From positions 310,001 to 374,000 of the forward strand of contig NZ_JACHEF010000006.1 of the NCBI RefSeq assembly GCF_014207355.1: DNA of 64,000 nucleotides, written 5' to 3'. Of the stretch, positions 37,402-38,219 are shown piece after piece (the first letter of the stretch is position 1; each line of letters begins with the position of its first letter). The stretch comes from Mesorhizobium sangaii. Its GTDB lineage: Bacteria; Pseudomonadota; Alphaproteobacteria; Rhizobiales; Rhizobiaceae. The position numbers and the translations under genes are program-made. The notes beneath the pieces were generated by a model. The model was not told where the DNA came from and did not search any database. It saw only the letters and a list, made by a program, of their open reading frames with translations.

Positions 37402-38082
37402 CTAGACCGCGACAGCCGGCTGGCTCCAGCGGGCGGCGAGCAGCCGGTAGGGGATGAGCGCCACAATGGCAATGATCAGCTTCACACTGAGGTCGCCGAG
37501 CGCCCAGGAGATCCAGCGCATAGCGTCGACATGGAACACACCCATCAGCGGTGCGGTTTCGAGCGCGAAACTGTCGTTGGGACCAGCAAAGGCGAAAGCG
37601 GCAGAGAAAGCGACGGTAAAGAACACGGCGGTGTCGAACACCGAGCCGACCAGCGTGCCGACGATCGGCGCCCGCCACCAGCTTTGCCGGCGCAGCCGGT
37701 TGAACACGGTGACGTCAAGCAATTGCGCGCAGAGGAACGCAGCACCTGACGCCGCAGCGATGCGCACCAGCCGGTCGGCCGCAGTCTCGAATTCGATCAG
37801 GCCGTGGCGGAACAGGAAGGGCGGGACGAGGATCGAGCAGATCACCGCCGTCATGAAGCCGACAAAGACGATCCTGCGCGCTACGGCAGGTCCGTAGCGG
37901 CGGTTGGCGAGGTCGGTGACCAGGAACGAGAAGGGATAGGTGAAGGCGCCCCAGGTCAAAAGGTCGGCCAGCGACAGGCCACCGATCTGCCCCTGCATCG
38001 GGAACTGCACGAGAATGTTCGACGCCACGACGACAAGCGCCATGGCGGCCACGAAGGGCAGGTATCGCGAGAAGGAACTCAT
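37402..38082 (-). CDS. YhhQ/VUT-family queuosine precursor transporter
   Basis: A 226-residue inner-membrane protein with six hydrophobic segments, of the VUT/COG1738 family. Typical features: LLTWGAFTYPFSFLVTDLAN near residue 42, RLVRIAAASGAAFLCAQLLDV, and FDTAVFFTVAF. E. coli YhhQ imports queuosine precursors (preQ0/preQ1) for tRNA modification. The candidate preQ1-I riboswitch directly in front, ending in the start codon, supports the same substrate here. A weakly acting ribosome site is expected because the A-rich aptamer tail replaces it. Confidence 0.9.
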   Translation of the reverse strand: MSSFSRYLPFVAAMALVVVASNILVQFPMQGQIGGLSLADLLTWGAFTYPFSFLVTDLANRRYGPAVARRIVFVGFMTAVICSILVPPFLFRHGLIEFETAADRLVRIAAASGAAFLCAQLLDVTVFNRLRRQSWWRAPIVGTLVGSVFDTAVFFTVAFSAAFAFAGPNDSFALETAPLMGVFHVDAMRWISWALGDLSVKLIIAIVALIPYRLLAARWSQPAVAV

Positions 38083-38109
38083 TTTTTTATCCTGGGTAAT
38101 GGAACCAGC
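38080..38109 (-). promoter_or_regulatory. Candidate preQ1-I riboswitch overlapping the start codon
   Basis: Read on the minus strand: stem CUGG, loop UUC, CAU, UAC, stem CCAG, then GAU, six A, and AUG. The order and the six-A tail match preQ1-I aptamers such as the Bacillus queC leader (GGUUC-UAG-CUAC... AU-six A-CUA). There the pseudoknot pairs UAG with CUA; here the equivalent pair is CAU with AUG, and the AUG is the start codon. Ligand binding should block translation. Not folded by software. Confidence 0.7.
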
Positions 38110-38189
38110 GGAGCGCTATTCCGAAACGGAATCACGCTCGCTTTGTTTGAGCATCGGAAGCCACTTTGAAAGGCTTGGATCCGATGCCC

Positions 38190-38210
38190 AAGGCGGTCGT
38201 CCCCCGCCTT
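38190..38210 (-). terminator. Hairpin downstream of rpmB
   Basis: AAGGCGG, 7-base loop, CCGCCTT, starting ten bases after the rpmB stop on the minus strand. There is no clear T-run, so it may end transcription weakly or protect the rpmB message 3' end, leaving the transporter gene with its own leader. A second inverted repeat (GCATCGGA/TCCGATGC) follows. Confidence 0.45.
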
Positions 38211-38219
38211 TAAACGATG

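Follow-up and report, generated by a model that had tools for sequence, protein, structure and literature searches.

Upstream of a yhhQ/VUT gene in Mesorhizobium sangaii lies a short leader that runs directly into the start codon, raising the question of whether an RNA element here senses a queuosine precursor and, if so, whether the initiation codon itself is the strand that it captures. A first-pass annotation of the window (the whole 64,000-nucleotide stretch of DNA analysed here) had proposed exactly this, reading the leader as a preQ1-I riboswitch whose pseudoknot pairs with the AUG. The assignment of the gene held: the open reading frame at 37402–38082 on the minus strand, which encodes a queuosine precursor transporter of 226 amino acids and would be the controlled gene, scores 106.4 bits against TIGR00697 (cut-off 50.95) and also matches Pfam Vut_1 above its cut-off. 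QueF and TGT are both encoded in the same genome, which makes synthesis and use of preQ1 in this organism probable.

Layout and conservation of the element

The minus strand from 38108 to 38080 reads CUGG-UUC-CAU-UAC-CCAG-GAU-AAAAAA-AUG and ends at the yhhQ start codon. The earlier description of 30 bases at 38080–38109 gave no strand; the sequence is present, but the element is 29 bases long, position 38109 being an extra G. The two strands of P1, CUGG (38105–38108) and CCAG (38092–38095), enclose a nine-base loop UUCCAUUAC (38096–38104) made up of UU, the C at loop position 8 (38102), the CAU predicted to partner the start codon as the 5′ strand of P2 (38099–38101), UA and the putative specificity C (38096). 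Then comes L3 (38083–38091), a GAU linker and six A, for which contacts in the P1 minor groove are expected from the E. coli structure (PMC10622847). The start codon (38080–38082) would be the 3′ strand of P2 when the element is matched position by position, from its sequence, to that structure. A Shine–Dalgarno-like AGGA (38090–38093) lies half within P1, at a distance of 7 nt from the AUG. Codon 2 begins with A in the window (38079); in relatives with UGG or UGC at the start of the loop, the base at this place is the partner of loop position 8 in a fourth P2 pair, which the UUC form of the window lacks.

Folding energy does not single out the element. The P1 hairpin alone reaches −3.5 kcal/mol, and shuffled sequence folds just as stably (z of 0.07); it is conservation and homology, rather than energy, that carry the argument. 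The upstream open reading frame resembles rpmB in its translation and synteny, and three hairpins lie between it and the element (38109–38219, minus strand; fold z-score of −5.8), the last of which can take two bases of P1. When the upstream hairpin is included, P1 is absent from the ligand-free minimum-energy fold, the hairpin taking the CU of CUGG while UCC pairs with GGA. The folding programs used cannot represent pseudoknots, and this P1-less fold may be the ligand-free state or merely a limit of the programs; because of the competing fold we lowered our confidence in start-codon capture slightly. A promoter scan found nothing. In some relatives (L322 and L168), a terminator-like hairpin with a U-run immediately precedes the element or is separated from it by a few bases.

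Conservation was assessed from both the element and the protein. The descriptor GGTTCCNTNACCN{4,14}AAAANG has one match in the 7.2-Mb genome of this organism, ending at the yhhQ AUG, and a reversed control pattern likewise has one match there. Among the 80 best homologues from named records (Mesorhizobium, Aminobacter, Pseudaminobacter and one titled only 'Bacterium'), the element stands in frame at the start codon in all 80, and both flanks drift. When left open at two P2 positions, the descriptor matched 167 of 346 genomes of the same family; among the matches listed, most read GGTTCCAT[CTA]ACCCAGGNTAAAAAAATG, and in no fewer than 13 of the 167 genomes all matches are chance-like. The descriptor search across 249 genomes of the order returned, outside the family, only 13 scattered matches that look chance-like by sequence.

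We also searched 50 of the 179 family genomes that had no descriptor match with the YhhQ protein. The gene was found in 46 of the 50, with the element in frame in 37, with its AUG out of frame in 3 and with no element in 6; it is kept, that is, at 40 of 46 yhhQ genes in these other genera of the family. The loop CAU is present at all 40 element-bearing genes, a count for which the leaders failing the pattern were printed and inspected by eye. A wider pattern applied to 80 further non-matching family genomes matched 64, of which 63 are genuine by their matched letters. Altogether 250 loci were examined and 245 hold yhhQ: 234 have an in-frame element, 5 have the captured AUG out of frame (L165, L169, L220, L221 and L389) and 6 have no recognisable element (L171, L384, L385 and L391–L393). 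The genomes of L391–L393 are small.

The pattern behind the 234 in-frame elements fixes GGU, CAU and AUG, and these elements are therefore no test of those positions. P1 is CUGG/CCAG in 233 of the 234 and CCAGGA occurs in 204. The exact six-A tail noted in the first-pass annotation is borne out, as the A-run counted with the A of the AUG is 7 in 229 elements and differs by one in 5. The specificity C just 5′ of the second P1 strand was left free in the protein-first search and is present in 117 of 117 elements found that way (234 of 234 in all, the genome patterns having required C for those beyond the 117). The GG/CC top pairs of P1, beneath the predicted pocket, are present, the patterns having required GG and CC. 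U6, directly after the 5′ strand of P1, is present in the protein-first element-bearing leaders, and among the printed protein-first leaders that failed the pattern there was no element with another base at this position. Loop position 13 is other than A in 7 of the 117, and loop position 7 is G, not the U of type III preQ1-I riboswitches, in 79 of the 234. The A-rich L3 followed by the 3′ strand of P2 gives the layout of an H-type pseudoknot, as judged on the letters.

The UGG form is carried by Sinorhizobium meliloti Ak57 pSymB, Rhizobium sp. NLR16a and Shinella sp. PSBB067. The annotated VUT coding sequence of S. meliloti begins exactly at the captured AUG. S. meliloti and Rhizobium sp. NLR16a both have rpmB upstream.

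Covariation and exchange of P2 strands

Covariation of CAU with AUG across orthologues had been suggested as a check of the pairing. In a 27-row family alignment (16 distinct rows), P1 and the CAU/AUG pairs are invariant, so there is no within-family covariation for those pairs; it appears instead between clades and in the fourth pair, the only one that covaries in this alignment (G-C in 4, C-G in 3, unpaired in 9). The covariation score of the alignment, 0.025, was reached by 20 of 500 shuffles, and one control, the structure slid by +3, outscores the proposed one (0.040 versus 0.025).

Across the 234 in-frame elements, GG at loop positions 7–8 is accompanied by C after the AUG in 67 of 67 and GC by G in 12 of 12, and with UC (n = 155) the base is A in 112, C in 22, U in 21 and never G. 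Leaving out the 80 close homologues shifts only the UC row (A 44, C 19, U 12, G 0). The 117 protein-first elements give C with GG in 31 of 31, G with GC in 6 of 6, and A 68, C 3, U 9 and G 0 with UC (n = 80). At the five loci with an out-of-frame AUG, G stands opposite C8 in 5 of 5; the captured AUG being out of frame there, the next base has no coding reason. The covariation in yhhQ leaders crosses from the leader into the coding sequence.

On a FastTree phylogeny of YhhQ (167 rows, first two residues left out), there are at least 11 changes in loop type and 36 in the base that follows the AUG. Supported branches provide 3 independent pairs for UGG with C at +4, on average 2.6 changing in the expected way, 0.4 showing no difference and none opposite, and 4 independent pairs for UGC with G at +4, all in the expected way; on all branches the pairs number 5 and 7, respectively, too few for a sign test. 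When the +4 base was simulated as evolving independently, on one tree at a matched rate, 0 of 3000 runs formed all 79 pairs and the largest number formed was 63. The information shared with loop type is 0.82 bits at +4 and at most 0.36 bits at the other coding positions from +1 to +24.

The five out-of-frame loci are also without the upstream AGGA. Their captured AUGGA is followed 13 nt later by an in-frame ATG (L389 has an additional in-frame ATG 7 nt later) and is placed like a Shine–Dalgarno sequence for the later ATG, which suggests an evolutionary swap between Shine–Dalgarno capture and start-codon capture that is observable in those lineages. At L167, which also lacks AGGA, the AUG is in frame, and an in-frame GTG occurs 15 nt later.

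P2 strands are exchanged between clades. In gammaproteobacterial and related genomes, counting only the fetched descriptor matches that came with a locus, all 17 distinct elements before yhhQ have C10/G29, and the ten fetched matches away from yhhQ in the same genomes are mixed at these positions. A second alphaproteobacterial family (yhhQ leaders L082–L085, L285–L313 and L406–L425), which we call Rhodobacterales-type because Pseudorhodobacter turbinis carries the same element, has a preQ1-I-like pseudoknot with a CCG/CGG P2 in 49 of 53 leaders, as found by a search that required four P1 pairs, CCG and CGG (9 of 59 matching genomes were left out of this sample). The failures are L294, L298, L309 and L424, with L298 and L294 narrow misses. 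In the 49, P1 is CAAG/CUUG in 39, CAUG/CAUG in 4, GAAG/CUUC in 3, CGAG/CUUG in 2 and CGAG/CUCG in 1, and the next P2 pair, which was not required, is U-A in 23, C-G in 5, A-U in 1, G-U in 2 and a non-pair in 18. A sample of the alphaproteobacterial class comprised 156 genomes with a match; the pseudoknot finder, run on 69 of its leaders besides that of the window, returned a believable element only in four Rhodobacterales-type genomes, the hit at L089 being distant and chance-like. The CCG/CGG leaders support kinship with preQ1-I for the yhhQ leaders of these alphaproteobacteria, as relatives with exchangeable P2 strands. Just 3′ of yhhQ, all four scanned Rhodobacterales-type loci have sub-threshold matches (33–39 bits, gathering threshold 75) to the Caulobacter small RNA CC2171 (L082 1191–1375, L083 2170–2346, L084 1237–1418 and L085 1249–1423).

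The Rfam PreQ1 model had been named as a further check. It matched neither the window element nor any of the four Rhodobacterales-type loci scanned; it also misses six gammaproteobacterial leaders scanned and the crystallised E. coli type III element (L111, 5174–5211), for which Rfam 15 gave no match up to an E-value of 10. Because the E. coli element and the six leaders are missed too, we set the silence of Rfam aside as uninformative. Rfam 15, that is, overlooks the E. coli type III element.

Proposed mechanism and alternative readings

On these grounds we hold it highly probable that the leader is a preQ1-class pseudoknot switch that captures the yhhQ start codon in its bound state. The predicted pairing of CAU with the AUG, already put forward in the first-pass annotation, draws support from type III homology, family conservation and covariation of the next pair. 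The leader would be a class I preQ1 riboswitch derived from the gammaproteobacterial type III yhhQ form or sharing an ancestor with it. PreQ1 would sit between P1 and P2, pairing with C 38096 and surrounded by U 38104 and the A-run, and in this ligand-bound state the loop CAU would pair with the yhhQ AUG. The start codon would thereby be buried, its first A forming the ceiling of the pocket, and the adjacent AGGA would be partly held in P1, adding to the block, such that translation of the importer would stop when the precursor is plentiful. Relatives would strengthen the lock by a fourth pair to the base after the AUG.

Of the alternatives, the one that survives best keeps the pseudoknot and changes its ligand, in the UGG/UGC sub-variants at least, to preQ0 or queuine. 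U7, the base that holds A27 in E. coli, is G in those 79 relatives, and salvage of preQ0 as well as preQ1 in E. coli depends on YhhQ (PMC5372724). The window version, however, keeps U6, U7 and C14, and the type III riboswitch of E. coli has a strong preference for preQ1 over preQ0 (PMC10622847). We regard another ligand as unlikely; in the UGG/UGC sub-variants, where position 7 is G, details of the ligand may be different.

Less probable still is a strong ribosome-binding site with a ligand-free 4-bp hairpin, conserved for translation efficiency only. The spacing of AGGA to the AUG suits such a site, an A-run favours initiation, and P1 is neither more stable than shuffles nor part of the minimum-energy fold of the longer leader. 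This reading nonetheless does not account for conservation of the loop UNNCAUNNC, for the type III match or for the covariation of position 8 with the base after the AUG, nor for the five out-of-frame loci, which keep P1, CAU, the A-run and the AUG without AGGA. Weakest, and very improbable, is a DNA operator in which the interleaved inverted repeats CTGG/CCAG and CAT/ATG form a repressor site and the covariation reflects a DNA palindrome: the CAT/ATG half-sites are spaced by roughly two turns of the helix, and conservation is extreme over the whole stretch, but short repeats that interleave around a fixed A-run are what an H-type RNA pseudoknot looks like, the A-run differs in length by one in 5 of 234 elements, and binding of preQ1 by the RNA is proven for the homologous element of E. 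coli (PMC10622847).

Returning to capture of the start codon by a preQ1-class pseudoknot, we think it likely that the rhizobial leaders form a distinct subtype of preQ1-I in which the AUG is a strand of P2, with its A as the ceiling above the ligand, and P2 extends into codon 2 in many rhizobia.

Comparison with known preQ1-I riboswitches

The passages compared from a 2024 review of the preQ1 riboswitch family give as control modes Shine–Dalgarno occlusion (full, partial or indirect), transcription termination and domain docking; no start-codon mode is listed in them, and neither 'start codon' nor 'AUG' occurs (PMC11625349). The same passages predict that Shine–Dalgarno-independent switches exist yet escape bioinformatic searches, and place type III sequences almost exclusively in Pseudomonadota, which those of the E. 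coli paper narrow to almost exclusively gammaproteobacterial (PMC10622847). In the literature on preQ1, queuosine and start-codon riboswitches, compared by title and the opening of the abstract and also by passages of PMC8632094, no description of start-codon capture by a preQ1 riboswitch was found. This comparison ran outside the sequence set of McCown 2014. That work reportedly defined type III, with 293 sequences.

Type II riboswitches (B. subtilis and T. tengcongensis) share with the window element the H-type pseudoknot, the AC before the 3′ strand of P1 and a AUAAAAAA-like tail, as in B. subtilis. Their loop has purines and their P2 is different (PMC10622847), and they regulate other genes (PMC11625349). 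Type I (C. antarcticus) has in common the UU after the 5′ strand of P1, but its specificity site is UC where the window element has AC (PMC11625349), and it differs in its larger loop and two ligands (both papers). Derivation from UAG/CUA, as first suggested, is not favoured: types I and II are the weaker match, and the parent appears to be the CCU/AGG of type III, changed in a single pair from C-G to A-U.

The closest system is the yhhQ leader of E. coli, a type III preQ1-I riboswitch that was crystallised with preQ1 by Schroeder et al. and represses a reporter 6.1-fold (PMC10622847). In that structure its pocket comprises U6, A25–A27 and C14 with G5-C15, the ceiling being joined by C8 and A13; A27 touches preQ1 and is held in place by U7, A28 lies in the ceiling, and P2 consists of U11-A28, C10-G29 and C9-G30. 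The E. coli leader reads UUGGG UUCCCUCAC CCCAA ... AAAAAGG UACAAU AUG. Both elements precede yhhQ and have a P1 with a G-C floor pair, a nine-nucleotide UUCCxUxAC loop, the specificity C, an A-rich L3 and a three-pair P2 that includes A28-U11 and G30-C9. The rhizobial loop UUCCAUUAC differs from UUCCCUCAC at positions 10 and 12 only, and position 12 is variable in both clades. The bases named for the pocket and P2 are kept (floor G-C, U6, U7, C8, C9, U11, A13, C14, the A-run and G30), such that the A of the AUG would correspond to A28 in the ceiling and the preceding base to A27.

The marks of type III, UU after P1, a pyrimidine-rich loop, AC at the specificity site and yhhQ downstream, are all present in the window element, the UU being lost in the UGG/UGC relatives. 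The difference lies in the tail. Whereas type III has AAGG, with the Shine–Dalgarno sequence paired in P2, the rhizobial tail is AAUG and its Shine–Dalgarno sequence lies half inside P1; the central P2 pair is A10-U29 in the window in place of C10-G29, with pairing preserved. One compensated exchange of C-G for A-U turns the Shine–Dalgarno strand into the start codon. Its tail being AAUG and not AAGG, the element is a variant rather than a plain member of type III, and we judge it to be a new, start-codon-capturing variant of preQ1-I. It offers a related case for the predicted Shine–Dalgarno-independent switches, in one large family that includes Sinorhizobium and Rhizobium, and makes testable whether burying an AUG suffices for riboswitch repression. 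The known preQ1 relatives hide a ribosome-binding site; the rhizobial element seems to hide the start codon.
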